This document shows, one piece after another, positions 25,764 through 46,996 of a DNA stretch of 64,000 bases. The position numbers and the translations under genes were made by a program. This DNA is from Nakamurella flava. Its GTDB lineage: Bacteria; Actinomycetota; Actinomycetes; Mycobacteriales; Nakamurellaceae. Location of the stretch: assembly GCF_005298075.1 (NCBI RefSeq), contig NZ_SZZH01000006.1, positions 1 to 64,000 of the forward strand. Reading direction: 5' to 3'. The stretch's first letter is position 1, and the number at the start of each line of letters is the position of its first letter. The notes beneath the pieces are model-generated. The model searched no databases and had not been told where the DNA came from. It worked only from the letters and a program-made list of their open reading frames with translations.

Positions 25764-25830
25764 AGACGCGCCGACCCCGTGACCGGCACCCCGGGGTGGG
25801 GCGCCGACCACGGGGTCGGGAAGCTCTGGA

Positions 25831-26846: not shown

Positions 26847-26868
26847 CTCCCCCACCCCCGCACCCCCG

Positions 26869-26929
26869 CCCGACTTGGTAAAGACGGTCGCTGTTTCGTC
26901 GGGCAGACGGCGTGTACTCCCCAGTCGCG
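26869..26929 (+). repeat. 61-bp dispersed repeat, copy R1
   Basis: It opens with CGACTTGGTAAAG after a CC (the usual CG is changed) and closes with CCAGTCGCG. It lies between the convergent HNH and FtsX-permease genes. The internal CGGCGTGT segment is shared with the other copies. In the sense frame it reads DLVKTVAVSSGRRRVLPSRE, the most divergent of the six. Confidence 0.8.
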
Positions 26930-26939
26930 AGCGGCCCGG

Positions 26940-29477
26940 TCAGCCGACGTCCACCAGGGCGGCCACCGGCGCGGTGCGGGCCGCCCGGCGGGCCGGCAGC
27001 ACCGAGGCCAGCAACCCGGCCACCACGGCGCCGCCGAGTACGGCGAGGATCTGCCCCCACGGCAGGTCCATCACCAGCGCCTCCCCCGCCGTGGTGATGA
27101 CGGCCGACGCCCCGGCCCAGCCGAACAGGATGCCGGCGAGGACGCCGACCAGGGTGCCGGCGACGGCCAGCAGCACCGCCTCGATTGCGAGCATCCGCCG
27201 CAGCTGTCCGCGTTGCAGGCCGAGAGCCCGCAGCAGACCGGACTCGCGGGTCCGCTCGACCACCGACAGGCTCAGCGTGTTCGCGATCCCGACGACGGCG
27301 ATGACCACCGCCACGGCGAGCAGGCCGATCGCGAACGTCAGGATCTGGCTGAGGCCCTTCTGCTGGTCCGTGCGGATGGGCGCGGCGCCACCGACCTGGA
27401 TCCCGTTCTCCCCCACCGTGAGACGGTTGACCTCGGCGACGATCTCGGTCGACCGGGACTGGTCGGCGATGGTCGCCCAGACCACCGTGGCCGGCGCGGT
27501 GGCCGACAACAGGTTCAGGGTCGACGCGGCGACGACGACACTCGCTCCGTTCTGCGTCCCGGCCAGACCGACCGGGGCCTGCCGCACGGCCAGCGCCGCG
27601 GTCGTCGTCCCGTCCGGCGCGGTCAGCCGAGCGGTGACCCCTTCGACCGGGCCCTCGATGCCCCAGTATTCGAGGTCGATCAGCACCTCGCCGGGAGCCG
27701 GTTGCACGGGCGCCGGCACCCCACCGGCCGGCGCTCCGAGCACGGTCACCGGCTCGGCGAGATCCTGACCGCCGACGGACACCGACAGCGTCGCCGCCGC
27801 CCCCGGGAGGGTGACCACGTCGCCCATCCCCGGCACCGCGGCCAGCCGGGCCACCAACGACGGCGCCTGCGTGCCGAGCGCACCGTCGGCGGCCGACAGC
27901 GTCAGGTCGACCGGATACCGCTCGGCCAGTTCGCGATCCAGGGTGGCGGCGGCCGATGCCGAGCCGACCAGCAGGGTGACGATGAGGCCCACACCCACCA
28001 TCAGCGCAGTACCGCTGCTGGCCGTGCGGCCCGGGTTGCGCAGCAGGTTGCCGGCCGCCATCCGGCCGGGCACGCCGGCCAGCCGACCGACCGACCCGAG
28101 GGCGGCGATGAGCGGAGGCAGGAACGTCCGGCTGAGCAGCAGCACGCCGGCCGCCGTCGCCGCCCCGCCGAGCAGGGCCAGCTCGAACCGACCGGCCGTC
28201 GCCCCGTGGACCAGCGCGACCAGGCCGGGGACGGCCAGCACCAGCGCGACCACCACCCGCACCCGGGACTGCCGGGCCGCCGATGCCGCGTCGCTGTCCA
28301 CCGGGCGCAGCGCGGCCAGCGGGGCCACCCGCATCGCCGCGGCCGACGGCACCCAGGCCGCCACGACGGTGACGACCACCGCCGCGATCGCCGTGACCAC
28401 CAACCCGACACCGTCCACCGCGAGACCACCGGTGGACACGCCGAAGAACCGGGCGACCCCGAAACCGCCGGCCACGCCGATACCGACCCCGAGCACACCG
28501 CCGATCGCGCCCAGCACCGCCGCCTCCAGGAGCACCTGCGTGCGGACCTGTTCACGGGTCGCCCCGACGCAGCGCAGCAGGCCGATCTGCCGACGCCGCT
28601 GGGCGATGAGGGTCGTGAACGTGGTCGCGATGACGATCATGGCCACGACGATGGCGACGACCGCGAACCCCGTCAGGACGTCCCCGAGCACCCGGACCTG
28701 CTGTTCCGCCACCTGCGCGGCCGTGGCCGACGCCGCTGCGGCCGTCTCGACGGTGGCCGACCCGGAGGTGGCCGCGCCGATCGACTGGGCCAGGGCGTCG
28801 GCGTCCCCGCCGCCGGTCACCAGCAGAAAGGACGGGGTGGTCCGCGGGAACAGCGCCTCCAGTGCGGCCGCGGTCACGTACCCGACGTTGGCCCCGCCCG
28901 GCGACCCGACCGCGTCGACCAGACCGACCACGGTGAACGTCGTCCGCGGGGTCGCCCGGGCCGTGGCCGCTGCGTCGGTGCTCGCCGACGGCACCGGCCA
29001 GCCCTCCACCGTCAGCGTGCCGCCCACGGGCAGATTGCCGCGGTCGGCGGTGTCCCGGGTCAGCAGGATCTCGTCGTCACCGGACGGCCACCGCCCGGAC
29101 GACAGGGTCGTCCACCGCAGGGCCGGGTCGTCCGGCAGGCTCCGCGCGCGCAGCCAGCCGCGGGAACCCTCCGCGGTGTAGGCCCCGAAGTTGTCGGCGA
29201 CCGGGGCGACCGCGGAGACCCCGGGGACGGCGCGCACGTCGTCGACCAGGATGTTCGCCGCGGCCGGGTCGTACGTGGCGTCCCCGTCCGGGACGACGAC
29301 GACATCGGCGGTGCGGTACTGGGCGGCGGCCGCGTCGGCCACGGCGGCCCGGAAGGTGGCCGAGAAGACGCCGGTGGCGGAGATGAACGCGGTCCCGATG
29401 AGGATGGCGACGGTGACGGCGACGAACCGCCCGGGAGTCGCCCGCAACTGGGCGACGGCGGTGTGACGGATGCTCAT
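26940..29477 (-). CDS. FtsX-like ABC transporter permease
   Basis: 845 residues from the ATG at 29477 (an ATG at 29489 overlapping the ATPase gene is possible). An N-terminal membrane segment (FVAVTVAILIGTAFISATGVF) and large extracytoplasmic domain precede FtsX helices (GFAVVAIVVAMIVIATTFTT), a middle pair, a second external domain, and a C-terminal FtsX block (LLAVAVVIAVVGIANTLSLS, ESGLLRALGLQRGQLRRMLAIEA). This is the MacB/SalY-like duplicated permease. It is paired with the ATPase immediately upstream and divergent to a kinase/regulator pair, the typical layout of antimicrobial-peptide detoxification modules. Confidence 0.9.
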   Translation of the reverse strand: MSIRHTAVAQLRATPGRFVAVTVAILIGTAFISATGVFSATFRAAVADAAAAQYRTADVVVVPDGDATYDPAAANILVDDVRAVPGVSAVAPVADNFGAYTAEGSRGWLRARSLPDDPALRWTTLSSGRWPSGDDEILLTRDTADRGNLPVGGTLTVEGWPVPSASTDAAATARATPRTTFTVVGLVDAVGSPGGANVGYVTAAALEALFPRTTPSFLLVTGGGDADALAQSIGAATSGSATVETAAAASATAAQVAEQQVRVLGDVLTGFAVVAIVVAMIVIATTFTTLIAQRRRQIGLLRCVGATREQVRTQVLLEAAVLGAIGGVLGVGIGVAGGFGVARFFGVSTGGLAVDGVGLVVTAIAAVVVTVVAAWVPSAAAMRVAPLAALRPVDSDAASAARQSRVRVVVALVLAVPGLVALVHGATAGRFELALLGGAATAAGVLLLSRTFLPPLIAALGSVGRLAGVPGRMAAGNLLRNPGRTASSGTALMVGVGLIVTLLVGSASAAATLDRELAERYPVDLTLSAADGALGTQAPSLVARLAAVPGMGDVVTLPGAAATLSVSVGGQDLAEPVTVLGAPAGGVPAPVQPAPGEVLIDLEYWGIEGPVEGVTARLTAPDGTTTAALAVRQAPVGLAGTQNGASVVVAASTLNLLSATAPATVVWATIADQSRSTEIVAEVNRLTVGENGIQVGGAAPIRTDQQKGLSQILTFAIGLLAVAVVIAVVGIANTLSLSVVERTRESGLLRALGLQRGQLRRMLAIEAVLLAVAGTLVGVLAGILFGWAGASAVITTAGEALVMDLPWGQILAVLGGAVVAGLLASVLPARRAARTAPVAALVDVG

Positions 29478-29481
29478 CTGC

Positions 29482-30258
29482 TCACGCATCCAAGGGGCGC
29501 AGGGTGGCCAGGATGTCGTCGGTGCTCGGCCGGTCCAGGTCGCCGGCCACCCGGCCGTCGGCCAGCAGCAGCACGCGATCCGCGTACGAGGCGGCCACCG
29601 GGTCGTGGGTGACCATGACGACGGTCCGCCCCTGTTCCCGGACCGCGCCCCGCAAGGTGGCGAGCAGCGCGTGCCCGCTGCGGATGTCCAGTGCGCCCGT
29701 CGGCTCGTCGGCGAAGATCACCTCCGGGTCGGTGACGAGCGCCCGGGCCACCGCGACCCGCTGCTGCTGGCCGCCGGACAGTTCGGCCGGGCGGTGCCGC
29801 AGGCGATCCGCCAGCCCCAGGGTGGCGACAATGCGCTCCAGGGCGGCCCGGTCGACCCGCCGCCCGGCCAGTTCCAGGGGCAGCACGATGTTCTGCTCGG
29901 CGGTCAGGGCGGGCAGCAGGTTGAACGACTGGAAGACGAACCCGATGCGGTCCCGACGGACCCGCGTCAGCTCCCGGTCGGACAACGCCGTGAGATCGGT
30001 GTCGCCCAGCAGGACGCGACCCGACGTGGCCTGGTCGAGCCCGGCCAGGCAGTGCATGAGCGTCGACTTGCCGGACCCGGACGGCCCCATGATCGCGGTG
30101 AACGCGCCGGCCGCCACCGCCACCGAGAGGCCGTCGACCGCGGTCACCTGGGCGTCGCCGGTGCCGTAGACCTTGACCAGCTGCTCGGCGGCGCAGGCCA
30201 CCCCGGCGGGTGATCGGAGGCCACCCGTGGCGGTGCTGACGGACGGGGACGACGTCAT
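29482..30258 (-). CDS. ABC transporter ATP-binding protein (MacB/LolD type)
   Basis: 258 residues from the ATG at 30258. Walker A GPSGSGKST (58-66), Q-loop FVFQSFNLLPALTA, signature LSGGQQQRVAVARAL, Walker B VIFADEPTGALD and H-loop VTHD. It is coupled to the FtsX-like permease that follows. Probably controlled by the divergent histidine kinase/response regulator pair at 30521-32514. Confidence 0.93.
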   Translation of the reverse strand: MTSSPSVSTATGGLRSPAGVACAAEQLVKVYGTGDAQVTAVDGLSVAVAAGAFTAIMGPSGSGKSTLMHCLAGLDQATSGRVLLGDTDLTALSDRELTRVRRDRIGFVFQSFNLLPALTAEQNIVLPLELAGRRVDRAALERIVATLGLADRLRHRPAELSGGQQQRVAVARALVTDPEVIFADEPTGALDIRSGHALLATLRGAVREQGRTVVMVTHDPVAASYADRVLLLADGRVAGDLDRPSTDDILATLRPLDA

Positions 30259-30520
30259 GTGGGGGTCGCTCCTTGTGGTGGGACGGTGCGGCCGGTGGGC
30301 CGCGATGGTCGTGCTCGACGCTAGGAACTCCGCGGCCCACGCACAGCGGACTCGGGTCGTCGGTACGGCCGGGGCGGGTGCCGCCACCGGGGGACCCGGT
30401 ACGACCGTGGTCCCACCTTCCCGACGCCCGGCTGCGACCGTGGTCGCGGATGGGCTGCCCGGGCGGGGGACGGGCCGCCGGGCCGACCGCCGGAGCGGCC
30501 GGTGTCCCTAGGCTGGCGGA

Positions 30521-31819
30521 ATGCAGGAGCGTCTGACCCGGTGGCTGTCGGACAGCCGGTGGCCGGGGGACGCCCTGGTGGCGCTGGCCGCCGCGCTGCT
30601 CGTCCTGTTCACCGGCGGCAATGGCGGCTACGTCGAGTGGCTGGCCAACACCGCTCTGGTCGCGACGCTCGTCTTCCGACGCACCCAGCCCCGGCTGATG
30701 ATCGTGATGGTCGCCGGACTGTGCCTGCTGCAGATCCTGCTCACCTCGCGGCCGCTGCTCGGTGACCTGGTGATCGCGGCCGTGGTGCACGCGTCGGCCG
30801 CCTACATCGCCGATCGTCGCTGGGGCAAGGCCACGCTGACGTTGGCCCTGGTGGGCGCCGGTCTGGCCGCCGTCCGCTGGAGCGTGATCCCCGACTCGAT
30901 CGCCGCCAACGACGCCCCCGGCGTGGTCACCGAAGTGCCCACCGTGCTGATGAACTTCCTGGCCGGCGCGGCTGCGGTGACCGTGATGTACCTGCTGGGC
31001 TCCCGGCAGCGGGACCGCCGCGAGCGGGCCGCCGAGCAGGTGTCGGCGATGGAGGAACGCACCCGGCTGCTCACCGCCGAACGCGACCGGCGGGTGGAAC
31101 TCGCCGCCGCCGCCGAACGGGCCCGCATCGCCCGCGACCTGCACGACATCGTCGCCCACTCGCTCGCCGTCATCGTCGTGCAGGCGCAGGGGGCGCGGGC
31201 CGCGGCGCTCGCCGATCCGTCGGTGGCCCCGGCCGCGCTGGACACCATCGCCGAGACCAGCCGGGACGCCCTGGCCCAGATGCGGCAGATGGTCGGGGTG
31301 CTGCGGGCCGGCGGCCCGGACCCGACCGGTCGACCGGCCGATGACGGTCCGGTGCCGGGCGGGTCGGTCCGGACGGCCCCGCTGCAACCGGCGCCCGACC
31401 TCGCCGCCCTGCCCGCGCTGGTCGAGGCGGTCCGCACCACCGGGCTGCCGGTGCACCTGCAGGTCTCCGTCCCCCCGGACCTGCCCGTCCCCGTGCAGCT
31501 CACCACCTACCGGATCGTCCAGGAGGGTCTGACCAACGTGCTCAAACACGGTGGGCCGGCAGCGTCCGTCCGCATCACCGTCACCGGCCCGCAGCCGTCG
31601 CCCCTGGGGCCGGCCCTGCGGGTCACCGTCATCGACGACGGACGCGGCGCCGCCGACGATCCCGCCGCCCCACCCGGCGAGCCCGGGCACGGGCTGCGGG
31701 GCATGCGGGAGCGGGTCGAGCTCCTCGGCGGCGATCTGCGCGCCGGCGCACGACCCGGCGGCGGATTCGCGATCACCGCCGTCCTGCCCGTCCAGCGACT
31801 GGTTCCGGGGCGTTCGTGA
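30521..31819 (+). CDS. NarL-type sensor histidine kinase
   Basis: 432 residues. The N-terminal sensor has four or five membrane helices (ALVALAAALLVLFTGG, MIVMVAGLCLLQILLTSR, LVIAAVVHASAAYIA, LTLALVGAGLAAVRW, LMNFLAGAAAVTVMYLLGS). HisKA_3 box ARIARDLHDIVAHSLAVIVV with phospho-His 208, then HATPase_c (YRIVQEGLTNVLKHGG, VTVIDDGRGAAD, GLRGMRERVELLGG). Its stop overlaps the regulator start. Likely senses an agent handled by the adjacent ABC exporter (inference from layout). Confidence 0.92.
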   Translation: MQERLTRWLSDSRWPGDALVALAAALLVLFTGGNGGYVEWLANTALVATLVFRRTQPRLMIVMVAGLCLLQILLTSRPLLGDLVIAAVVHASAAYIADRRWGKATLTLALVGAGLAAVRWSVIPDSIAANDAPGVVTEVPTVLMNFLAGAAAVTVMYLLGSRQRDRRERAAEQVSAMEERTRLLTAERDRRVELAAAAERARIARDLHDIVAHSLAVIVVQAQGARAAALADPSVAPAALDTIAETSRDALAQMRQMVGVLRAGGPDPTGRPADDGPVPGGSVRTAPLQPAPDLAALPALVEAVRTTGLPVHLQVSVPPDLPVPVQLTTYRIVQEGLTNVLKHGGPAASVRITVTGPQPSPLGPALRVTVIDDGRGAADDPAAPPGEPGHGLRGMRERVELLGGDLRAGARPGGGFAITAVLPVQRLVPGRS

Positions 31820-32514
31820 GCGCGCCGGACGGGGTGATCGGGGTCGTCCTGGTCGACGACCAGCACCTGGTGCGCAGCGGGTTCCGGATGCTGATCGACG
31901 CCCAACCCGACATGCAGGTGGTCGGAGAGGCCGCCGACGGCGGCGCCGCGGTCGACCTGATCGAACGGCTCGCCGACCGGGTCGGCCCCGGCGACGTGAT
32001 CCTCATGGACGTGCGGATGCCCGTGCTCGACGGCGTGGCCGCCACCCGGGCGATCCGCGCGCGGCGGGGCCCGGCGTCCCCCCAGGTGCTGGTGCTGACG
32101 ACCTTCGACCTCGACGAGTACGTGCACGCCGCCCTGCACGCCGGGGCCAGCGGATTCCTGCTCAAGGACGCCCGCCCCGAGGACCTGCTCGGCGCCGTCC
32201 GCGCCGTCGCCCGCGGCGATGCCGTCGTCGCCCCCAGCGCCACCCGCCGACTGCTCGACGCCTTCGCCGGCCGGCTGCCCGTCGGCGGCGACACCGGCCC
32301 GTCCGGCCCCGACCCGCTCGCCGCGTTGACCGACCGCGAACGGGAGGTGCTCGTCGAGATCGCCCGCGGCGCCACCAACGCCGAGATCGCCGCCACCCTC
32401 TACATGGCCGAAGGCACCGTGAAGACCCACATCGGTCGGCTGCTCACCAAACTCGAGGCGAGGGACCGGGTCGCCCTGGTGCTGGTGGCCCATCGGGCGG
32501 GGCTGCTGACCTAG
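31816..32514 (+). CDS. NarL/LuxR-family response regulator
   Basis: 232 residues from a GTG overlapping the kinase stop. The REC domain has acidic pair VDDQ, phospho-Asp 65 in VILMDVRMPVLDG, a conserved Thr (VLTTFDLDEY) and Lys (FLLKDARP); the C-terminal LuxR HTH is LTDREREVLVEIARGATNAE with TVKTHIGRLLTKL. Partner of the upstream kinase and the likely regulator of the divergent ABC exporter genes. Confidence 0.93.
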   Translation: MSAPDGVIGVVLVDDQHLVRSGFRMLIDAQPDMQVVGEAADGGAAVDLIERLADRVGPGDVILMDVRMPVLDGVAATRAIRARRGPASPQVLVLTTFDLDEYVHAALHAGASGFLLKDARPEDLLGAVRAVARGDAVVAPSATRRLLDAFAGRLPVGGDTGPSGPDPLAALTDREREVLVEIARGATNAEIAATLYMAEGTVKTHIGRLLTKLEARDRVALVLVAHRAGLLT

Positions 32515-32528
32515 TCCGCCGCCCCGCC

Positions 32529-32589
32529 CGCGACTTGGTAAAGAACGCCGCTGTTTTGTCGCGGAGGCGGCGTGTTGCGCCCAGTCGCG
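32529..32589 (+). repeat. 61-bp dispersed repeat, copy R2
   Basis: It starts CGCGACTTGGTAAAG and ends CCAGTCGCG, in the same orientation as R1. It fills most of the 81-base gap between convergent genes, the response regulator and ureF. A nested stem pairs ACGCCG with CGGCGT. The sense frame reads RDLVKNAAVLSRRRRVAPSR. Confidence 0.85.
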
Positions 32590-32595
32590 AGTGCT

Positions 32596-33285
32596 TCAGG
32601 CGCGGAACAACCGCTGCCCCGCCACGGCATGCCGCTCGGCCCATTCTTCGACGAGCGGGGCGGTAGTCGCCGGCAGATCGTCGACGGTTGCGAGACCGGC
32701 CAGCGACGAGAGGTTCTCGATGTCCGGTGCGGCCTCGAACACCCACCGGGCGGCGCGGGTGGGGTCCATCGGTTCCAGCTTGAGAGCCGCCGCAGCAACG
32801 GTCTGGGCGTCGTCGTAGCCGACGAGCCGGGCGACCTGGGCTGCCGACAGTCCAGCCGCGGCGCCCGCCACGCCGAGTACGACGCCACGACTGGGCTTCC
32901 CGACGTGGGTCAGCGCCCGCACACCGAGGTCATCGGGCCACAGCCCGCGCAACAGCCGGAGATAGCCGCGGCCGAGCACCTGTGCGTTGTCCCGCAGGGC
33001 GGGGCTGACCGTCCGGGCCCGCCAAGCCTCATCGACGGCCGTCAGCCTGGCGGTCAGGTCATCGGGGGCGGTGGCGTCAAGCACCTCGCGACGCGCCAAC
33101 ACCGCGGCCCCGGCTTCGACCGGGACGACGCTTCGCAGCCGGGCCGTCAGGTAGGACGGGATGTCGTCGACGGTCATTCCCGCGCGCAGCGCCGGCTCGA
33201 GTCCGGCCGACTGGGTGTGGGCACCGGTCGGAAGACGAGCGTCGCCCAGCAGCATCAGCAGGACCTCGGCGGACGTGGACGGCAC
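32596..33285 (-). CDS. ureF: Urease accessory protein UreF
   Basis: 229 all-helical residues from a GTG. UreF signatures are seen in LLMLLGDARLPTGAHTQSAGLEPAL, VLGRGYLRLLRGLWPDD and an LKLEPMDPTRAARWVFEA C-terminal region. UreF acts with UreD and UreG as the GTPase-regulating part of the nickel-insertion complex. In most actinobacteria ureF directly follows ureC and precedes ureG; here a DUF559 gene with two repeats separates it from ureC, and about 8 kb of unrelated genes separate it from ureG. Confidence 0.88.
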   Translation of the reverse strand: MPSTSAEVLLMLLGDARLPTGAHTQSAGLEPALRAGMTVDDIPSYLTARLRSVVPVEAGAAVLARREVLDATAPDDLTARLTAVDEAWRARTVSPALRDNAQVLGRGYLRLLRGLWPDDLGVRALTHVGKPSRGVVLGVAGAAAGLSAAQVARLVGYDDAQTVAAAALKLEPMDPTRAARWVFEAAPDIENLSSLAGLATVDDLPATTAPLVEEWAERHAVAGQRLFRA

Positions 33286-33305
33286 CCGCCGACCGTAACC
33301 CGTTC

Positions 33306-33366
33306 CGCGACTCGGTAAAGCCGGCCGTCAACTTGTCGCCGAGACGGCGTGTTCCGCCCTGTCGCG
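33306..33366 (+). repeat. 61-bp dispersed repeat, copy R3
   Basis: It starts CGCGACTCGGTAAAG and ends CTGTCGCG. It lies between ureF and the DUF559 gene and covers the last 12 codons and stop of the latter. It is in opposite orientation to R4, which lies beyond the other end of the same gene. Confidence 0.85.
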
Positions 33367-34329
33367 GTGGCGATCTGACGTCGTCCCTGACCAACCGGCG
33401 TCGAGCAGGGCCCGTCGGACCCGGTGGACCGTCGCCGCCGGGGAACCGAAGAAGGCCCGCCCGGTCACCCTGACGACTCGCCAGCCAGCCGCGGCCAGGC
33501 CGTCCAGGCGCAGGACGTCGCGGTCGAAGACGAGGGTGTCGGTCCGGTGGTGGTCGCCGTCGTACTCGACGACGACACGGAACTCCTCGTAGACCAGATC
33601 GCCACGTCCCAGGAAAGCGCCGTTGCTGGAACGGATGTCGACGTTGAGGCGGGGCTCCGGCAAGCCGCCGTCGAGCAGCCTGAGCCGGAGCAACGTCTCC
33701 GGTCGCGATTCGGACCCCTGACGGGCCAACACCACCGCCTGTGCGACCTTGCGGCGGCCGCGCCCCCGGTACGTCGTCAGGCGTTCGGTGAGGTCGGTCA
33801 GCGTCACGTACGGGCGCCCCTCCTCGGGGTAGACCGAGTCCAGGATCAGGGCGTCGGCGACCGCCACCAGGTCGGGCATCGTCAGGACGAGGGACAGGTG
33901 ACACAGCAGTGTGGCCGGGTCGATCGTGCGCAGCCCATGCCGTTCGACGATCTGCGCTCCGCGGTCGGAGATCTGCCGAGCCCGCACCCCGGGCCGCCGC
34001 GGCGTCCAGGCATCGCCCAGCGCGACGACGTGCAGGTCTTCGGCCCCGTCGTCGAACGGGAGCGGCAACGGCCAGATGCGCGCAGCCGTTAGTGAGCTGA
34101 GCGCGACTCCGTTTGGCACCGCTGCCAGCAACGCGAGGCATCGCCGGCGTAGGGCCACCGCACCCGACTCGTGCTGCCAGTCGGCGGCGCTGCCGGCGAC
34201 GATCCGTACGCCGTGGTGGGGCGCCCAGACGTCCCGACGGCGAAGTCGCGACGGCGGGACCTGACTGGAACCGACCAGGATCGGCCGGTCGACGAGGTTG
34301 TCCGGAAGTGGCCAGGGCGCTCGGGGCAT
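33328..34329 (-). CDS. DUF559 (Vsr-like endonuclease fold) protein with AbiEi-like N-terminus
   Basis: 333 residues from the ATG at 34329. The N-terminal part has a basic segment (PPSRLRRRDVWAPHHGVRI) and an AbiEi-like middle (ARIWPLPLPFDDGAEDLHVV, HGLRTIDPATLLCHLSLVL). The C-terminal DUF559 domain carries the PD-(D/E)XK-like features VVVEYDGDHHRTDTLVFDRD and AAGWRVVRVTGRAFF. These proteins occur in many copies in actinobacteria; their activity is unproven. Its 3' end is formed by repeat R3, and repeat R4 lies 120 bases upstream. The gene interrupts the urease operon between ureC and ureF, which suggests insertion. Confidence 0.82.
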   Translation of the reverse strand: MPRAPWPLPDNLVDRPILVGSSQVPPSRLRRRDVWAPHHGVRIVAGSAADWQHESGAVALRRRCLALLAAVPNGVALSSLTAARIWPLPLPFDDGAEDLHVVALGDAWTPRRPGVRARQISDRGAQIVERHGLRTIDPATLLCHLSLVLTMPDLVAVADALILDSVYPEEGRPYVTLTDLTERLTTYRGRGRRKVAQAVVLARQGSESRPETLLRLRLLDGGLPEPRLNVDIRSSNGAFLGRGDLVYEEFRVVVEYDGDHHRTDTLVFDRDVLRLDGLAAAGWRVVRVTGRAFFGSPAATVHRVRRALLDAGWSGTTSDRHRDRAEHAVSATS

Positions 34330-34449
34330 GCGCAGAGGATGGGCCGGGCGTCCGACACGCACCCGAAACTGTCCACATCCGTCGGAATGACGGCCCGGTC
34401 ATCCCCAGACCGTGGCGAGGCCTTGACGCCTTCCCGACACCCGACGGCG

Positions 34450-34510
34450 CGCGACTGAGCGCAACACGCCGCCTCCGCGACGGAACAGCGGCGGTCTTTA
34501 CCAAGTCGCG
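34450..34510 (-). repeat. 61-bp dispersed repeat, copy R4
   Basis: On the plus strand it runs from CGCGACTGAGCGC to CTTTACCAAGTCGCG, so it is inverted relative to R1-R3. It lies between ureC (22 bases from its stop) and the promoter side of the DUF559 gene. The minus-strand frame reads DLVKTAAVPSRRRRVALSRA. Confidence 0.85.
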
Positions 34511-34531
34511 GGGGACGTCAGCGCGGCGCCC

Positions 34532-36235
34532 CTAGAACATCGAGTACAGCTGCGCCAACGGCAGTTCCGTCGCCGGAGCGGGCTCGACGCGTTCACCGTC
34601 GATGGAGATCTGGAACGTGTCGGGCTCGATGTCGATCTTGGGCAGCGCGTCGTTGTTGATCATCTGGGCCTTGCCGACGTCGCGGGTGGGCTTGACGCCG
34701 ACTAGCTCTCGCCGCAGCCCGAGCCGACCGGCCAGGCCGTCGTCCAACGCGCGCGGGGCGACGAACGAGACGGACAGGTCGGCGCCGATCGCGTCGGTCA
34801 GCGCCGGGCGCATGAGCACCGGCTGCGGCGTCGGGATGGAGGCGTTCGGATCACCCAGCGCCCCCCAGACCAGTCCGCCGCCCTTGATGACGACGGACGG
34901 CCGGAACCCGAAGAACTTCGGCTCCCACAGCACCAGGTCGGCGAGCTTGCCCGGCTCGACCGAGCCGACGACGTCGTCGATGCCGTGGGTGATCGCCGGG
35001 TTGATCGTGTACTTGGCGACATACCGTCGGGCGCGCAGGTTGTCGGCCGGCAGGCCGCCACCGAGATCGCCGCGGCGGTTCTTCATGACGTGCGCGACCT
35101 GCCAGGTGCGGGTGATGACCTCGCCGATCCGGCCCATCGCCTGCGCGTCCGAGGACGTCAGGGAGATCGCGCCCATGTCGTGCAGGATGTCCTCGGCCGC
35201 GATGGTGGTGGCCCGGATCCGCGACTCGGCGAAGGCCAGGTCCTCGGGGACGGCCGGGTTGAGGTGGTGGCAGACCATCAGCATGTCGAGGTGCTCGGCG
35301 ACGGTGTTGACGGTGTGCGGCAGCGTCGGGTTGGTCGACCCGGGCAGGACGTTCGGCAGGCCGGCGATCGAGAGGATGTCCGGGGCGTGCCCGCCGCCGG
35401 CGCCCTCGACGTGGAATGCACTGATCGAGCGGCCATTGATCGCCGCGACCGTCGAAGCGACGTAACCGGCCTCGTTCAACGAGTCGGAGTGCAGCGCGAC
35501 CTGCAGGCCCCACTCGTCGGCCGCGGTCAACGCCGCGTCCACGGCGGCCGGGGTGGACCCCCAGTCCTCGTGCACCTTGAACCCGCCGGCCCCGGCCAGG
35601 GCCTGCTCGGCCAGCCCGGCGACCGAGGTGGTGTTGCCCTTGGCCAGCAGCAGCAGGTTGATCGGGTACGGGTCGATGGACCGGTGGATGGTCTTCAGGT
35701 GCCAGGGTCCCGGCGTCACGGTGGTCGCCTTGGTGCCCTCGGACGGGCCGGTGCCGCCGCCGCCCAGAGTGGTCAGCCCGGTCGCCAGGGCCTCGACGAT
35801 CTGCGACGGCGAGATCAGGTGCACGTGGGTGTCGATGCCGCCGGCGGTGAGGATCTTGCCCTCGCCGGAAATGACGTCGGTACCGGGGCCGATGACGAGC
35901 TGCGGGTGCACGCCGTCGGCGATGTCCGGGTTGCCGGCCCGGCCGAGGGCGACGATCCGGCCGTCCTTGATGCCGACGTCGGCGCGGACGATGCCCCAGT
36001 GGTCGAGCACGATCGCGTTGGTGATGACGGTGTCGAGAGCCCCGGCGGCGTTGGTCATCTCGCCCTGGGCCATCGATTCGCGGATCGACTTGCCGCCGCC
36101 GAAGACGGCCTCCTCGCCGCCCGCGGTGTAGTCGTCCTCGACCTGGATCCACAGATCGGTGTCCCCGAGCCGGATCTGGTCGCCGGTGGTCGGGCCGTAC
36201 AGGGCCGCGTACTCGGACCGGGAGATCTGCACCAT
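34532..36235 (-). CDS. ureC: Urease subunit alpha
   Basis: 567 residues, normal length. Catalytic subunit hydrolysing urea to ammonia and carbamate at a di-nickel centre. Visible: metal-binding HVHLISP, carbamylated Lys220 in [16 protein letters not shown], the flap-region motif MVCHHLNP, and metal-ligand Asp region [13 protein letters not shown]. The ATG directly follows the ureB stop (TAGATG), so translation is coupled. ureA and ureB lie upstream in the same operon, but ureF is displaced by the inserted DUF559 unit. Confidence 0.98.
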
Positions 36236-36601
36236 CTACTTGCTCCCGTCGCGCGTCGCGGAATCGAGGTCGTGCTGGTCGGCCGGCTTGATCTGCACGC
36301 CGGGGACCCGGCGCTTCCCCTTGAAGGCGACGGCGGAGACGGTGCGGGACGCACCCGGCTCGAAGCGTCGCGAGGTCCCGGACGGGATGTCGAGCCGGAA
36401 GCCGTAGGCGGCCTCGCGGTCGAAGTCCAGGGCGGCGTTGGTCTCGGCCAGGTGGATGTGCGAGCCGATCTGCACCGGCCGGTCGCCGGTGTTGAGGATG
36501 GTCAGCTCGATCCGCTCGTCGGCGGAGCGGTCGGCGTTGAGTTCGATGGTGCCCTCGGCGACGCGGATGGCGCCCGGGCCGAAACTGCTGGACGAAGCCA
36601 T
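36236..36601 (-). CDS. ureB: Urease subunit beta
   Basis: 121 residues. The beta-subunit motif is clear: [53 protein letters not shown] and [10 protein letters not shown]. Structural subunit of urease, forming the trimer with UreA and UreC. Separate genes for A and B, as in most actinobacteria. It starts 16 bases after the ureA stop. Confidence 0.96.
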
Positions 36602-36617
36602 GTCGGTCTCCTGCGTC

Positions 36618-36923
36618 TCAGGCGATCGGATCGTGGATGGTGACGAGCTTGCGGCCGTCGGGGAACGTGGCCTCCATCTGGACCTCGACGAGCATCTCGG
36701 CGACGCCGTCCATCACCTGGTCCCGGCCGAGGACCTCGCGGCCCTGCACCATCAGGTCCTCCACCGACTCCCCGTCCCGGGCCCGCTCCACCACCCACGT
36801 CGACAGCAGGGCCACCGACTCCGGATAGTTCAGCTTCACCCCGCGGGCCAGACGGTCGCGGGCGACCATCCCGGCCACGGCCAGCAGCAGTTTCTCGGTG
36901 TCCGACGGCGTCAGGTGCACCAC
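36618..36923 (-). CDS. ureA: Urease subunit gamma
   Basis: 101 residues, the family length. Motifs: [40 protein letters not shown] and [20 protein letters not shown]. First gene of ureABC. The start is GTG-GTG with GAGGAGG immediately upstream; either GTG may be used. A GlnR-type box lies about 90-100 bases upstream. Confidence 0.96.
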
Positions 36924-37006
36924 GGCCTCCTCTTCGACGGGCGGGGCGGGCCGGCGCCGTCAGGGGTGACGGCGGACGAGTCCGTGGGGATTGTGGCAGC
37001 CGGCAC

Positions 37007-37022
37007 GTTTCCGTGGTGTGAC
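37007..37022 (-). promoter_or_regulatory. GlnR-type box upstream of ureA
   Basis: On the minus strand it reads GTCAC-ACCACG-GAAAC, an exact match to the gTnAc-n6-GaAAc half of the actinobacterial GlnR consensus, 84 bases before ureA. GlnR is known to control urease genes in several actinomycetes. A second adjacent pair is not evident, so affinity could be modest. Confidence 0.55.
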
Positions 37023-37072
37023 GGGTCACCGGTCTGAGATCGGGTGTCGTACCCCGTTGATAGGTTGCCGGC

Positions 37073-37261
37073 ATGGCGATGGCCGCTGACCAGCCCCGAC
37101 AGACCTCCCCGGTGGGCGGCAGCGTGACGGTCCGCGGGCCCGAGTCACGCGACCGCCCTGTCGACGATGCCGCCGGGCTCACCCACCTCGACGTCATCCG
37201 CGGCCATTCCCAGGCAGCACGCGAACGGTACGCGGGCCTCCTCGATCGTCTCGGCCGGTGA
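37073..37261 (+). CDS. Possible small protein, 62 aa
   Basis: An ATG-started frame of 62 residues diverging from ureA, without a clear ribosome site and without a known family. Its helical C-terminus (LTHLDVIRGHSQAARERYAG) could be real. It immediately precedes a decayed YhcG-type gene, so it may equally be a remnant. Low confidence. Confidence 0.25.
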   Translation: MAMAADQPRQTSPVGGSVTVRGPESRDRPVDDAAGLTHLDVIRGHSQAARERYAGLLDRLGR

Positions 37262-37309
37262 CGGAATCGACGCCACCGCTGCGGGCCGAGTTCCAGGCCG
37301 CCGTCGCCC

Positions 37310-37641
37310 TCCCGCAGCGGGCCGCGCTTCCCGATCCGATGCCAAGGGCTACTCGCCCCGAAACCTGAAGTCGGTACGCGCGTTCGCTGCCGCGTGGCCG
37401 CGGGAGGCAATTGTGCAACAGGCTGCTGCCCAATTGCCCTGGGCCCATCACGTCATCCTGCTGAACAAGCTCAACGACCCTGACCAGCGGGGATGGCACG
37501 CAGCAGCGTCGATCGAGCACGGGGTGGAGCCGTACCGTGCTGGCCCATCAGATCGACACCCGGCCGCTCAAGCGAGCCGGACAGGCCGTCATCAACTTCA
37601 CCCGCACCCTCCCTACCGCCGACTCGAACCTGGCGCGATAG
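37310..37641 (+). pseudogene. Broken YhcG/DUF1016-type nuclease gene fragment
   Basis: The plus strand encodes recognisable YhcG N-domain sequence in pieces: KGYSPRNLKSVRAFAAAWP and QQAAAQLPWAHHVILLNKLN in one frame. After one extra G near 37522 it continues in the next frame as WSRTVLAHQIDTRPLKRAGQ and AVINFTRTLPTADSNLAR, then a TAG at 37639-37641. A further frame change is likely before KGYSP. The PD-(D/E)XK nuclease domain of the family is absent. A degraded remnant of a YhcG-like protein, which relatives use in defence- or DNA-related roles. Confidence 0.75.
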
Positions 37642-37712
37642 CCCCTCGGTGCACACGTCCGCACCCTCGACCACTCGTTGCGTATGCTTCGAATAGCGAG
37701 GAAGGAGCCGTC

Positions 37713-38159
37713 ATGACGGCAGACGTGGCGGGCGGGCCGACCACTGAACAACAGAGTCGAGCTGCGAAGGACGCGGCGTACCGCGTCCACAACATCCTGC
37801 GTACCCATTCCGGCGAGACGGTGCCACTGCATGACCCCCAGGACGACGAGCTGACCGTTCCCCGGGCGGCTGCGGAGCTCCTGCGGCAGATCCTCAGCGC
37901 CATGGCCGCTGGGGTGCCCGTGTCGGTCATCCCTGCGCATGCCGAGCTCACGACGCAGCAGGCTGCCGATCTGCTCAACGTTTCGCGACCCCACGTCATC
38001 AAGCTGTTGGAGCAGGGCGAGATCGAGTACCGGCTGGTGGGAACGCATCGCCGGGTGCTGGCCAGTTCGCTTCGGGCCTTCAAGGAGTCGTCCGAACGTC
38101 GCCAGACTGCTGCGGCCGACGAACTCACTCGGCTGACCGAGGAGATGGGGCTGTACTGA
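37713..38159 (+). CDS. Excisionase-type DNA-binding antitoxin of a PIN toxin module
   Basis: 148 residues. The C-terminal half has an excisionase/MerR-like helix-turn-helix (LTTQQAADLLNVSRPHVIKL, EIEYRLVGTHRRVLASSLRA). GGAAGGAG precedes the ATG. The PIN-domain gene starts one base after its stop. By analogy with such pairs, the protein should bind its own promoter and neutralise the toxin. The N-terminal half is helical and contains no known motif. Confidence 0.85.
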   Translation: MTADVAGGPTTEQQSRAAKDAAYRVHNILRTHSGETVPLHDPQDDELTVPRAAAELLRQILSAMAAGVPVSVIPAHAELTTQQAADLLNVSRPHVIKLLEQGEIEYRLVGTHRRVLASSLRAFKESSERRQTAAADELTRLTEEMGLY

Positions 38160-38160
38160 C

Positions 38161-38706
38161 ATGGCATTCATTGCCGTGTACGACGCCTGCGTCCTCTATC
38201 CGTCTGTCACCCGCGACGTCTTGATCCGGGTCGCCATCGCCGGGACCGTCCAGGCTCGGTGGACTGACGACATCCTCGACGAGGTTCGTCGGAATGTGGC
38301 GGCGGACCGACCCGACATTTCCCGTGACCAGTTGAGCCGCCTGTTCGAACTCATGGCCGAGGCCCTGCCGTCTGCCGCAGTCGGGAACCACCACCCCCTC
38401 ATCGATGGTCTCGAGCTTCCCGAACCTGACGACCGCCACGTGCTGGCAGCGGCCATCGCGAGCGGCGCCCAGCTGATCGTCACGGACAACCTGCGTGACT
38501 TCCCACCCGCTGTCCTCGACACGTGGAACATCGAGGCCAAGCGCGCAGACGACCTCCTGGTCGATCAGTTCCATCTCGCCCCCGATGTCCTTCACGGGGT
38601 CGTCCACCAGCTTTCCCGGGCCTGGAAGGGGGAACCCACTCCCAGCGAGGTGCTGAGGCGGTTCGAGTCGTCCGGTCTCCTGCAGACGGCGGCGCTCCTG
38701 CGCTGA
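38161..38706 (+). CDS. PIN-domain ribonuclease toxin
   Basis: 181 residues. The PIN fold is indicated by an N-terminal acidic residue (VYDACVLYP, D8), a central acidic cluster and LPEPDDRHVLAAAIASGAQL with ITDN-like sequence IVTDNLRDFPP. These acidic residues coordinate Mg2+ or Mn2+ for RNA cleavage. It is immediately downstream of the excisionase-like antitoxin, forming a type II toxin-antitoxin-like module next to a decayed YhcG gene. RNA target unknown. Confidence 0.88.
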   Translation: MAFIAVYDACVLYPSVTRDVLIRVAIAGTVQARWTDDILDEVRRNVAADRPDISRDQLSRLFELMAEALPSAAVGNHHPLIDGLELPEPDDRHVLAAAIASGAQLIVTDNLRDFPPAVLDTWNIEAKRADDLLVDQFHLAPDVLHGVVHQLSRAWKGEPTPSEVLRRFESSGLLQTAALLR

Positions 38707-38736
38707 GCACCCCTGGCAGACAGCGGAAGGCGAACC

Positions 38737-39951
38737 ATGACAGAACGCGACCACGACATCGTCCTGTTCGGCGCGAGCGGCTTCGTCGGCAGGCTCGTCG
38801 CCCGGCAGTTGGCGCAGCACGCCCCGAGCGGGACGAGGGTGGCGCTGGCCGGGCGGACCCGATCGCGGGTGGAGGCGGTCCGCGACGAGATCGGGGTCGA
38901 CTGGCCCGTCGTCGTCGCCGACAGCGCCCACGCGTCCTCGATGCGGGCCTTGGCCGAGTCGACCGGGGTCGTCATCAGCACCGTCGGACCGTACGCGCGG
39001 CACGGGTTGCCGCTGGTCAAGGCGTGCGCCGAGGCGGGCACCGATTACACCGACCTGACCGGCGAGGTGCTGTTCGTCCGGCAGAGCCTGGCCGCCGCCC
39101 ACCCGCGGGCGGGCCGGACCGGGGCGCGGATCGTGCACTCCTGCGGGTTCGACTCGGTGCCCAGCGACCTGGCCGTCCTGCTGCTGGCCGACCGGGCCGC
39201 CGCCGACGGCGCCGGTGAGCTGACCGACGTGGATCTGCTGGTGCGCTCGGCCAAGGGCGGGTTCAGCGGCGGCACCATCGACTCGCTCCGCAACCAGCTC
39301 CGCGAGACCCGGGAGGACCCGTCGCTGCGGAAGGTGGCGGCGGACCCGTACGCGCTCAGCCCGGACCGGCAGTCCGAACCGCACCTCGGCAAGCAGCCGG
39401 ACTTCACCCCGCCGACCCGGCTGGACGACGGGACGTGGGTCGCGCCGTTCGTCATGGCCCCGTACAACACCCGCGTCGTCCGCCGCAGCAACTCCCTGCT
39501 CGGCCACCGGTACGGCCGCACGATGCGGTACCGCGAGTCGGTGGCCACCGGTGATTCCTGGTGGTCCCCCGTCGCCGCCACCGGCGCCGCCGTCGGCCAG
39601 GGGCTCATCGGGCTGGCGGTCGGACAGCCGTTCCTCGCCCCGGTCGTCGACCGCATCCTGCCCTCCCCGGGCGAGGGACCGAGCGAGAAGGCGCAGCGGG
39701 AGGGACATTTCCGCATCGAGGTGCGGGCCCGGACGACCACCGGCGCCCGCTATCGGGCCACCGTGGCGGCCAAGGGTGACCCCGGCTACGCGGCCACCTC
39801 GGTGATGCTGGCCGAGAGCGCTCTGGAGCTGGCGGCCACCCGTCAGGACGGGCAGCGAGGCGGGGTGCTGACGCCCGCGGTGGCGTTGGGCGAGGGGCTG
39901 GTCGACCGGCTGCGCGGGCGCGGCTTCACCTTCGACGTCGAGCCCGCCTGA
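38737..39951 (+). CDS. Saccharopine-dehydrogenase-like/trans-acting enoyl-reductase-family oxidoreductase
   Basis: 404 residues with an N-terminal Rossmann fold (IVLFGASGFVGRLVARQLA, VALAGRTRSRVEAV) and VISTVGPYARHGLPLVKACA, ADYTDLTGEV-type sequence, and CGFDSVPSDLAV. This is the pattern of the mycobacterial enoyl-reductase/saccharopine dehydrogenase-like group, which act on lipid-linked intermediates. No lipid-synthesis partners are nearby, so the substrate is open. Confidence 0.87.
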   Translation: MTERDHDIVLFGASGFVGRLVARQLAQHAPSGTRVALAGRTRSRVEAVRDEIGVDWPVVVADSAHASSMRALAESTGVVISTVGPYARHGLPLVKACAEAGTDYTDLTGEVLFVRQSLAAAHPRAGRTGARIVHSCGFDSVPSDLAVLLLADRAAADGAGELTDVDLLVRSAKGGFSGGTIDSLRNQLRETREDPSLRKVAADPYALSPDRQSEPHLGKQPDFTPPTRLDDGTWVAPFVMAPYNTRVVRRSNSLLGHRYGRTMRYRESVATGDSWWSPVAATGAAVGQGLIGLAVGQPFLAPVVDRILPSPGEGPSEKAQREGHFRIEVRARTTTGARYRATVAAKGDPGYAATSVMLAESALELAATRQDGQRGGVLTPAVALGEGLVDRLRGRGFTFDVEPA

Positions 39952-39963
39952 CGCGTCCCGCTC

Positions 39964-40024
39964 CGCGACTGGGCGGAACACGCCGCTTCCCGAACGCTTT
40001 TCCGACGGGCTTTACCAAGTCGCG
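39964..40024 (-). repeat. 61-bp dispersed repeat, copy R5
   Basis: On the plus strand it runs from CGCGACTGGGCGGAACACGC to CTTTACCAAGTCGCG, the same orientation as R4 and R6. It lies between the convergent dehydrogenase and MFS genes, with R6 36 bases further on. Confidence 0.88.
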
Positions 40025-40059
40025 AAAGGGGCGACGGCCCGCGCGACCCCGCACCCCCG

Positions 40060-40120
40060 CGCGACTGGGCGGAACACGCCGCCTCCGCGACGTTTTTCCG
40101 ACGGGCTTTACCAAGTCGCG
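40060..40120 (-). repeat. 61-bp dispersed repeat, copy R6
   Basis: Nearly identical to R5 (CGCGACTGGGCGGAACACGC to CTTTACCAAGTCGCG), in direct tandem with it. The longer shared sequence than with the other copies suggests recent duplication. Confidence 0.88.
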
Positions 40121-40178
40121 CGGGGGGTGAGGTCGCGAGGGGGGGAGGTCGTGGCGGGGGGGTCGGGGGCGTGTGGGA

Positions 40179-41666
40179 TCAGGCTTCGACGGGTTCGGCG
40201 TGCTTCTCGTCGGCGCTGTGGGAGTTGTCGAGGGTGGCGGCGCCGAGGAGGGCGACGGCCCCGACCAGGACGGTGAGGACCAGGTAGGCGATCTGCTCGC
40301 CGTGGAAGTAGCTCTCGACCAGTTCGGGGCTCCAGGCCCCCAGCGGCAGGGTGGTGACGACCAGGGCGGCGATGAGCGTTCCCACTAGGGCCGCTCCGAT
40401 ACTGGTGCCGACCTCCTGGGCGGTGTCGTTGAGGGCGGCCCCGAGCGACGTGCGGTTCTCCGGCATGGCGTCGACGAGACCGACCGCGCAGATCGTCATG
40501 ACCGTCCGCAGACCGGCGGTCATGAGCACCATGCCGACGGCGATGGCCAGGTAGCCGTGGTCGACGGCCCAGGCCAGCCAGGCCAGCCCGACGATGAGCA
40601 CACCGACTCCGATGATGCAGGCGATGCGCCGTCCGTAGCGCCGGACCAGGAACTCGGTGAGCGGGGTCGAGGCCAGCATGGTGACGATGAACGGCAGGTT
40701 GGCCAGGCCGGCCACCACCGGGCTCCAGCCGTAGGCGTACTGGAAATGCAGGACCAGGCTGAACATCACGCCGATCATGGCCATCGACGTGCCGAGCTGG
40801 GCCAGGGTCGCCCCGCGCACGGTGGGCAGCCCCAGCAGCTTCAGGTCGAGCATCGGGGCCGCCGCGGTGCGCTCGCGCCAGACGAAGCCGACCACCGCGA
40901 GGACGGCGCCGACGGCCGACAGCACGGTGGGCCAGGACGACCAGCCGTGCTCGACGCCGCTGGTCAGCGTGTAGCAGGCCAGGCCGATGGCCAGGATGGT
41001 CAGCGCGGCCCCGGGGATGTCGAGGGCGTCGTCGGTCAGGCCGGCCGGGTCGTCCTTGGCCACCCCGAAGCGGACCCCGACCAGGGCGATGAGCGCGATC
41101 GGGGCGTTGACCAGCAGCAACCACTGCCAGCCGACGTGGGTCAGGGCGGTGCCGCCGAGCACGGGGCCGAGGATGAAGCCGCTCATGCCGACGACGATCA
41201 TCACCGTCATCGCCCGCATGCGCAGGGTCTGGTCGTCGAAGAGCCGGAAGACCAGTGAGTTGGTGATGGGGGCCATCGCGGCGGCGGCGATGCCGAGCCC
41301 GGCCCGCAGCACGATGAGTTCGCCGGTGGTGGTGACCGCCAGCACGGCCAGGCTCATCAGGCCGAACGCGGTGAGCCCGATCAGCAGGACCCGTCGCCGG
41401 CCGAAACGGTCGGCGATCGACCCGGCGGTCAGCAGCAGGCCGCCGAAGGTCAGCGAGTAGGCGCCGGTGATCCACTGCAGGGACGTGGTGCTGCCCTGCA
41501 GGTCGCGGCCGATGGTGGGCAGGGCGATGGTCAGCAGGGTGTTGTCGACCATCTCGACGAAGAAGGCCAGGCACAGCGCGGCCAGCGGGATCCAGGCGGC
41601 GCGGAGTGAGGGGTAGGTGCGGGCGGGGGTGGCCGAGTCCGCGACCGGGGAAGGGGATGTGCTCAT
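40179..41666 (-). CDS. MFS drug-efflux transporter (DHA2, 14-TM type)
   Basis: 495 residues with about 14 membrane helices. Motif A variant GSIADRFGRRRVLLIG, DNTLLTIALPTIGRDLQ near the first helix and LVLRAGLGIAAAAMAPI are typical of the DHA2 proton-driven multidrug exporters. It is divergent from a TetR gene across an 84-base region with three GAAC-N3-GTTC repeats, so it is very probably the pump under that repressor. Confidence 0.93.
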   Translation of the reverse strand: MSTSPSPVADSATPARTYPSLRAAWIPLAALCLAFFVEMVDNTLLTIALPTIGRDLQGSTTSLQWITGAYSLTFGGLLLTAGSIADRFGRRRVLLIGLTAFGLMSLAVLAVTTTGELIVLRAGLGIAAAAMAPITNSLVFRLFDDQTLRMRAMTVMIVVGMSGFILGPVLGGTALTHVGWQWLLLVNAPIALIALVGVRFGVAKDDPAGLTDDALDIPGAALTILAIGLACYTLTSGVEHGWSSWPTVLSAVGAVLAVVGFVWRERTAAAPMLDLKLLGLPTVRGATLAQLGTSMAMIGVMFSLVLHFQYAYGWSPVVAGLANLPFIVTMLASTPLTEFLVRRYGRRIACIIGVGVLIVGLAWLAWAVDHGYLAIAVGMVLMTAGLRTVMTICAVGLVDAMPENRTSLGAALNDTAQEVGTSIGAALVGTLIAALVVTTLPLGAWSPELVESYFHGEQIAYLVLTVLVGAVALLGAATLDNSHSADEKHAEPVEA

Positions 41667-41686
41667 GGGGCACCTCTCGGGAGAAT

Positions 41687-41736: not shown

Positions 41737-41750
41737 GATACGATGCAAGG

Positions 41751-46919: not shown

Positions 46920-46943
46920 CCTCAGTCGGCGTCGGTCGCGCCG

Positions 46944-46996
46944 ACTTGTCATACCCGCACCTTCCGCCGACGGACGAAGGTGCGGGTATGACAAGT
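46944..46996. terminator. Bidirectional terminator hairpin, 21-bp perfect stem
   Basis: The arms 46944-46964 and 46976-46996 are exactly complementary over 21 bp (starting ACTTGTCATACCCGC and ending GCGGGTATGACAAGT) with an 11-base loop. It lies 25 bases past the permease stop and 32 bases before the convergent CocE-type gene end, so it can end transcription from both sides. Confidence 0.85.

Follow-up and report, generated by a model that had tools for sequence, protein, structure and literature searches.

The window analysed here, the first 64,000 nucleotides of contig NZ_SZZH01000006.1 of Nakamurella flava (assembly GCF_005298075.1), contains a gene for a DUF559-family nuclease that is enclosed by two copies, R3 and R4, of a 61-bp repeat (R), and we regard this segment as probably one case of a widespread actinobacterial unit of the form repeat–DUF559 gene–repeat, in which the repeat is about 60 bp long, often palindromic and specific to that lineage of the gene. 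Two thirds of the DUF559-family genes that were scored are bracketed in this way, their repeats are gene-specific, six of the eight repeat families examined are dispersed, and the nuclease residues are invariant among diverse members. We therefore hold, with fair confidence, that the DUF559 protein is the dedicated nuclease of a palindrome system that resembles, without being homologous to, the REPtrons, in which the gene of a REP-associated tyrosine transposase (RAYT) is flanked by repetitive extragenic palindromes (REPs); the binding, cutting and movement of the repeats by the protein are what we infer.

An earlier note on this DNA had likened the segment to a RAYT-like arrangement with a protein of Vsr fold as the possible mobiliser, and its description of the parts is borne out. 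R3 (+) and R4 (−) stand in opposite orientation, span 1205 bp and enclose one open reading frame (ORF) with family matches, to DUF559 and MTES_1575; the segment sits between ureC and ureF; the last 12 codons and the stop of the DUF559 gene come from R3, with an overlap of 39 nt; and an HNH gene does lie 22 bp from R1 (gene end at 26846, R1 start at 26869). The likeness itself is supported in kind and proved to be general, as described below, while the suggested mobility stays conjectural.

Matched repeats around DUF559 genes

To assess bracketing, the two flanks of a gene, 300 bp upstream of the profile start and 300 bp downstream of the stop with 45 bp of the gene added, were aligned to each other, and a gene was called bracketed at a flank-to-flank score of at least 40. 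In 39 genomes of one order, matched flanks were found for 67 of 101 DUF559-family genes, whereas they were found for 7 of 155 other genes of 600–1800 bp at the same loci (Fisher p 8.5e-28), and 1 of 1200 randomly mismatched flank pairs scored 40 or more. All seven positive controls adjoin a DUF559 gene, one of them being ureF between R2 and R3. The same ureF, beside the DUF559 gene, was the single gene among 163 to score in a 304-kb stretch of the N. flava genome; in that scan the DUF559 gene had been called with a late start and scored 27. The bracketed genes span 30 of the 39 genomes and 11 of the 13 families of the order.

The composition of the sample bears on these counts. The first 20 genes scored (14 bracketed) include some that were picked after palindromes had been seen, and the later ones, 53 of 81 bracketed, were taken by genome from among the relatives listed; for the 80 loci chosen by genome with their flanks unseen, the comparison is 53 of 81 genes with 3 of 118 controls. 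The gene-locating profile had 34 members including the window gene, so that the 315-bit score of the latter is no evidence of membership. It located 102 genes, of which 101 were scored, locus L223 being omitted for too short a flank; L225 (G014), bracketed by eye, scored 22 and was counted as a miss. Locus L219 (G002:C1:3779901-3784900) was left out of the test, its gene being unrecognised by the profile; this gene, of 315 codons, lies between two palindromes of the GCAGAAA type.

Within N. flava, the four full-length DUF559 genes are bracketed, two shorter matches are not, and one further match is without a score. Taken literally, the expectation that DUF559 genes are flanked by R fails, as the other six DUF559 genes of the genome have no R in the flanks read; in kind it stands, since three of those six have matched palindromes of their own. 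Further matched palindromes, different from gene to gene, were seen around four genes of the same-genus genome G002, three more genes of N. flava and others in G055 and G022. A reading that we favoured at first, in which R is a bidirectional terminator with an accidental link to DUF559, drew on the positions of R and on the finding that one of the seven DUF559 genes of the genome has R; it was dropped because other DUF559 genes carry other matched palindromes.

The repeats have a median length of 65 bp, and 43 of the 67 fall in the range 45–75 bp. In 60 of the 67 units the start of the downstream repeat is no more than 30 bp past the stop codon, and in 39 it precedes the stop; the upstream repeat lies a median of 50 bp before the profile start. 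Among the 36 clearly self-complementary repeats, 35 of the 72 ends have ‘CGA’ within their outermost 9 bases, the two ends of a repeat not being independent of each other; 500 single-base shuffles gave 9.1 such ends on average and 20 at most; ‘CGA’ is thus a possible common end tag of these repeats.

Mostly, the repeats are private to each DUF559 gene, and in six of the eight families examined they also occur as dispersed copies without a gene. Besides R, a second family of N. flava, that of the paralogue at G000:C5:142220, was found at 11 places (this genome alone being searched), and 8 copies of a third were seen. One family of G002 has 12 places in that genome, two of them bracketing a DUF559 gene, and none in 16 other same-genus genomes; like this family, R is restricted to the genome that has its gene. 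Two families of Arthrobacter sp. StoSoilB13 match at 38 and 10 places; as a palindrome is matched on both strands, the number of copies may be half of that. These two families were found in 2 of 72,556 plasmid records, both from StoSoilB13.

Relatives of the window protein were found in 53 of the 61 genomes of the order searched. They occur in 3 of 72,556 plasmid records (three Arthrobacter replicons) and 1 of 50,697 phage records (a contig filed as phage), a scan of viral contigs gave none, and all four of these relatives, which extend the comparison beyond the order, have matched flanks, with scores of 58–74 for slightly wider flanks. In Arthrobacter, an RNA-methyltransferase gene and fbaA enclose the unit, and one relative has a peptidase gene at that place. 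Ten cross-genome pairs of loci share both neighbours, which are 66–99% identical, and the DUF559 proteins of these pairs reach relative scores of 0.42–0.83 (BLOSUM62, as a fraction of the self-score). Both members are bracketed in six pairs, from four orthologous sets; repeats are common to both members in two of these pairs and differ in the other four, of which one is borderline with a cross-score of 37, and three of the four sets contain a pair whose repeats differ between species. Since the flanks match within a locus and differ between species, both repeats of a gene seem to change together. Shared repeats are confined to the closest DUF559 proteins.

The R family and the ureC–ureF site

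Each of the six copies of R in the window (Table 1) is 61 bp long and ungapped, with E from 5.5e-21 to 3.6e-18 under a covariance model built from those same copies. With this model, 27 copies of at least 51 bits were counted in the 4.84-Mb genome, L035 (37 bits) being excluded as another type of palindrome, and the exact pattern of R has 15 matches there against 0 for the reversed pattern. A search of 60 further genomes, 16 of them of the same genus, at E of 1e-4 or below and with stricter filters returned one match, of 31 bits in G001, with a sequence unlike R.

Gene contexts, as given by a home-made codon-usage gene caller, place 16 of the 27 copies between convergent genes, 8 between genes of the same direction and 2 between genes called divergent, while the remaining copy falls within a called gene; the convergent set includes two intervals with two copies each and one case that depends on a very short ORF. 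For comparison, the 304-kb stretch has 265 junctions, 53 of them convergent. The distance to a called stop codon is at most 60 bp for 24 of the 27 copies and at most 25 bp for 17; 4 copies overlap the stop. R has a stretch of the CTTTACC type on one strand only, and folding is better than that of shuffles for four of the six copies in the window (z below −2.5). Three copies (L019, L020 and L032) are gathered within 1.4 kb at G000:C7:5818-7229, and two of the three bracket a gene for an EamA-type transporter, so that ordinary genes are also bracketed by R.

That ureC and ureF are normally adjacent, as the earlier note had it, is true in 19 loci examined outside the genus, drawn from 21 matches. 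Within the genus, the gap is at most about 250 bp in six of the 10 other genomes that have ureF, and in the remaining four it is longer and filled by other sequence. It holds a PEP-mutase gene and a small ORF in G004, and what appears from its sequence to be a dihydroorotase-like gene in G010. In G002 there are two genes, one of them apparently RraA-like, with palindromes at both ends; these palindromes (L116:8245-8305 and 9592-9648) resemble those of two different DUF559 genes elsewhere in G002. In G009, a six-frame search of 30 ure loci found two collinear matches to the DUF559 profile in different frames, one with E of 1.7e-4 and the other with 1e-3 for the whole segment and 0.02 for the best domain; the inclusion threshold was otherwise passed only by the window's own gene. 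An open frame of G009 gave 32% identity over 82 residues in a pairwise BLASTP comparison (E 6e-6). No R was found in G009, whose assembly is 88% complete, and a possible palindrome beside the matches did not hold up.

Table 1. Coordinates of the repeat-bracketed unit, the copies of R and adjoining features in the 64,000-nucleotide window
Feature	Position	Strand	Remarks
Unit R4–DUF559 gene–R3	33306..34510	.	1205 bp; flank-to-flank score 50 inverted, 20 direct
DUF559-family nuclease gene	33328..34362	−	GTG start, 344 aa; C-terminal MTES_1575/DUF559 domain
R3	33306..33366	+	61-bp repeat that includes the last 39 nt of the DUF559 gene
R4	34450..34510	−	61-bp repeat; 21 bp past the ureC stop, 87 bp upstream of the DUF559 GTG start
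R2	32529..32589	+	Between the response-regulator gene and ureF, which are convergent
R1	26869..26929	+	Between the HNH gene and an FtsX-type permease gene, which are convergent
R5	39964..40024	−	Between convergent genes
R6	40060..40120	−	Shares the interval of R5
ureC (urease alpha)	34532..36235	−	Adjoins R4
ureF	32596..33285	−	Adjoins R3; bracketed by R2 and R3
Solo palindrome	46940..46996	+	Family of the DUF559 paralogue at G000:C5:142220; differs from R

The urease cluster of the window (23789-36923) is interrupted twice. In addition to the DUF559 unit, a hydrolase gene, the HNH gene and an ABC-transporter/two-component module (from R1 to R2) lie between ureF and ureG, which are about 8 kb apart here and adjacent in 7 of 10 same-genus relatives. 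Elsewhere in the window, positions 2643-2936 and 3843-4136 form a 294-nt direct repeat with 72% identity, 1.2 kb apart, and a run of 21 G lies within a GC-rich stretch at 52037-52083.

The DUF559 protein, a possible mechanism and its alternatives

By hmmscan, the window protein falls just under the Pfam cut-offs (MTES_1575, 33.7 against 38.2; DUF559, 20.3 against 20.6), and in the six-frame search it reaches 22.3 bits for DUF559, above the cut-off. Closer support for its assignment to the family comes from a paralogue of 56% identity (E 8e-109). In a set of 14 diverse aligned proteins, each of the two Pfam models matches 13 at E of 0.1 or below, and E222, D255, E266, G269 and D282 are invariant. 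The profile matches PDB 3hrl (E 7e-7) and 3r3p, a ‘mobile intron protein’ (E 5e-4) that we take to be the Vsr-like homing endonuclease I-Bth0305I; one of the 14 members also has a weak match to a homing-endonuclease model of PADLOC (E 0.0016), and weak Vsr matches were found for one of the 14 in Pfam and at E 0.01 in NCBIfam. At least nine of the 14 match the AbiEi models of PADLOC. The window protein matches none of these at E of 0.01 or below, and its N-terminal part aligns with relatives some of which do. No gene for an AbiEii toxin is adjacent in the window, where the neighbours are ureC and ureF. Defence annotation may, with such matches, label DUF559 genes as AbiE antitoxins.

Several published observations concern the same domains. 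MTES_1575 has been described as a Vsr-type restriction endonuclease domain (PMC3710099). The DUF559 protein VsrA of Caulobacter was reported to cause the SOS response in cells without a cytosine methylase (PMC12907096), so that nuclease activity of the DUF559 domain in living cells is quite plausible; this is the single functional account of a DUF559 protein encountered in the analysis. In addition, a DUF559 gene of Deinococcus is among those whose expression changed without N4-cytosine methylation (PMC6712171).

In the mechanism that we envisage, the N-terminal part of the protein, which is AbiEi-like in many relatives, would recognise the cognate repeat, and the nuclease domain of Vsr/homing type would nick or cut at or beside it. 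Repair or re-joining would then place a copy of the repeat, or on rare occasions of the entire unit, at a new site; such sites would be those that are tolerated and, for R, would lie mostly after stop codons. The part played by the DUF559 protein for these repeats would thus be comparable to that supposed for the unrelated HuH enzyme, RAYT/TnpA-REP, for REPs. We lean, by a narrow balance of judgement, towards the broader view that bacteria possess a second class of proteins dedicated to mobilising palindromes, the two-part DUF559 proteins, which evolved independently; each gene would maintain, spread and keep re-tuning a private family of repeats of about 60 bp in its host genome. Our confidence in this view and in the dedicated nuclease was set slightly lower because dispersal was found in six and not all families and because a repair role of Vsr type has been proposed in print for a DUF559 protein.

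A number of other results weigh against the dedicated nuclease. At the threshold used, 34 of the 101 DUF559 genes have no matched flanks; 36 of the 67 units, and no more, have clearly self-complementary repeats; and the orientation of the flanks is mixed (23 direct, 7 inverted, 37 undecided). R itself fails a crude test of self-complementarity, the family being weakly palindromic, and gives no sign of compensatory changes, the share of paired cells being 93.3% in R and 93.1% in shuffles. The target duplication that the earlier note had in mind did not appear beyond chance, equal flanks of 2 bp being seen at 5 of 27 copies (2.5 expected), of 3 bp at 1 (0.9 expected) and of 4 bp or more at none, and there is no strain-level empty site among the genomes compared. 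Of the 25 copies that do not flank the gene, 4 lie within about 15 kb around it, with a p-value of about 1e-6 that was calculated after the clustering had been noticed. Positions in the second N. flava family are not strictly 3' (at 8 loci, 1 convergent, 5 same-direction and 2 called divergent); as to the two of the eight families not counted as dispersed, the repeats of the N. flava paralogue at C5:147238 were found solely at its flanks in the stretches examined, and the family of ERGS1:01 has 4 places, perhaps two flanks counted on both strands. Over all bracketed pairs, protein and repeat similarity are not significantly related (65 of 500 permutations reach the observed value), from which it would follow that the repeats quickly diverge beyond recognition. 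Prediction of the structure from the single sequence gave a mean predicted local distance difference test score (pLDDT) of 36, unusable for fold searches. Finally, the matches in G009 are probably the remains of a decayed DUF559 gene at the ureC–ureF site of a genome in which no R was found, and the gene may therefore predate the amplification of R at this site: either the DUF559 gene was inserted before the R family arose or two insertions took place here. Of the earlier picture of this site, the adjacency of the two genes in relatives is upheld, and the matches in G009 speak against a simple R-borne insertion.

The alternatives differ in what they make of the repeats. If these were bidirectional transcription terminators or RNA hairpins at 3' ends, with the DUF559 gene merely insulated on both sides, the frequency of R between convergent genes, its closeness to stop codons and the folding of the four window copies would be accounted for; this reading gives no reason why DUF559 genes in particular are bracketed, or why paralogues have sequences of their own, and neither the absence of covariation nor a simple scan of positions 26000-42000, which reported no terminator-like site, speaks for it, so that we consider it unlikely. 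The repeats could also be operators, through which an AbiEi-like part represses its own promoter at the upstream repeat while dispersed copies serve as regulon sites or decoys, the protein being a component of a defence or toxin–antitoxin system. AbiEi proteins do bind inverted repeats in their own promoters (PMC7319586), and both the AbiEi matches among the relatives and the position of the upstream repeat would suit this; the second repeat at the 3' end and the location of most R copies after genes would not. Few relatives were met with in the plasmid and phage records, against the defence role. Such scarcity is unlike many defence genes, and the operator reading appears to us somewhat less credible still than terminators.

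Two further possibilities give the gene or its spread another meaning. The DUF559 gene may be the passenger of a composite element, captured by two MITE-like repeats (miniature inverted-repeat transposable elements) that another transposase moves. Consistent with this, the repeats also bracket neighbours, such as ureF and the EamA-type gene on contig C7, and R outnumbers the DUF559 gene; the passenger reading would nevertheless require that, across 30 genomes, one gene family was captured by many different repeats. Among the model matches, which are all whole-repeat (lone end-like matches were not looked into), there was no evident autonomous partner carrying R ends, and Y1_Tnp (PF01797, the RAYT type) has no match in the genome, other transposase families not having been searched; we judge capture of this kind improbable. 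A homing-endonuclease-like unit, whose nuclease would cut alleles that lack it and spread by repair, with the repeats as its target and scars, would fit the match to 3r3p, the weak PADLOC match and the placing of units between conserved neighbours (ureC and ureF here; the RNA methyltransferase and fbaA in Arthrobacter). Homing spreads a gene at one site and would not by itself produce dozens of repeats without a gene, and is a shade more improbable than capture. That the protein is a Vsr-type nuclease of mismatch or methylation-linked repair, with repeats that only mark the place of integration, would agree with the weak Vsr matches and with the hypothesis that VsrA is a repair nuclease for TG mismatches (PMC12907096); it offers no reason for gene-specific dispersed repeats, and we attach very little probability to it.

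If the dedicated-nuclease reading is correct, the way of life of REPs and RAYTs, in which a chromosomal nuclease gene tends a population of palindromes, evolved once more around an unrelated enzyme, and one origin of the species-specific intergenic palindromes of high-GC Gram-positive bacteria can be explained. The broader view of a mobiliser class, if true, would explain the abundant actinobacterial DUF559 genes that have no assigned function, as well as the origin of many intergenic palindromes. Gene-specific repeats are also a concrete candidate substrate for actinobacterial DUF559 proteins, and the matter bears on the annotation of defence systems, many of the proteins being matched by AbiEi models. 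In the literature searched, subscription journals being outside its coverage, DUF559 or MTES_1575 was not linked to palindromic repeats in any title or abstract start, and it looks as if the connection of DUF559 genes with private palindromes has so far gone unrecognised.

Comparison with known systems

In actinobacteria, nuclease-coding repeats are represented by the REP13E12/DUF222-HNH repeats of mycobacteria, which have an HNH protein; judged by titles and the openings of abstracts, none of the five papers listed on these concerns DUF559. Vsr-like homing endonucleases (PDB 3r3p) are related in the sequence of the nuclease domain, and we know of no dispersed cognate repeats for them. MITEs and other miniature derivatives of insertion sequences (ISs) are likewise short and interspersed and have complementary ends; here, by contrast, there is no clear target duplication, the bracketed gene is no known transposase and no autonomous IS with these ends is evident. 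VsrA of Caulobacter and other Vsr-like endonucleases share the nuclease domain family and differ in the mismatch action proposed for VsrA; a word search for ‘palindrom’ in PMC12907096 gave 0 occurrences.

TIRtrons resemble the DUF559 unit in their repeats. In TIRtrons, tyrosine transposase genes are flanked by long terminal inverted repeats unrelated to the GTAG REPs (PMC3733652), and, as with DUF559, the flanking repeats are gene-specific and some belong to repeated families (PMC3733652); the enzyme there is a tyrosine transposase and not a DUF559 nuclease.

In its anatomy the DUF559 unit is like a REPtron. RAYT genes flanked by two REPs form a unit, while further REPs are scattered in the same genome and in some species are gathered near the gene (PMC2817692); in both systems, then, a nuclease gene lies between two repeats that have scattered intergenic copies. 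REPs are found mostly after genes, between convergent or unidirectional ones, and the CGTC REPs are without a known enzyme (PMC3733652). The tnpA-REP gene behaves like a housekeeping gene (PMC8266576), a further point of likeness. Here the enzyme is Vsr-like and not a HuH protein of the Y1 type, and PF01797 is missing from the genome; the repeats are about 60 bp long as opposed to 20–40 for REPs. The REPs that flank RAYT genes are said to be inverted in every case (PMC2817692), whereas the flanking repeats of DUF559 genes are often direct, although the window unit itself is inverted. Moreover, RAYT and REP trees are reported to be concordant in Stenotrophomonas (PMC2817692), in contrast to repeats that only the closest DUF559 proteins share. 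With an unrelated enzyme and a rule of orientation that is not kept, the DUF559 unit is therefore not a REPtron by membership; judged by analogy, it probably works like one.

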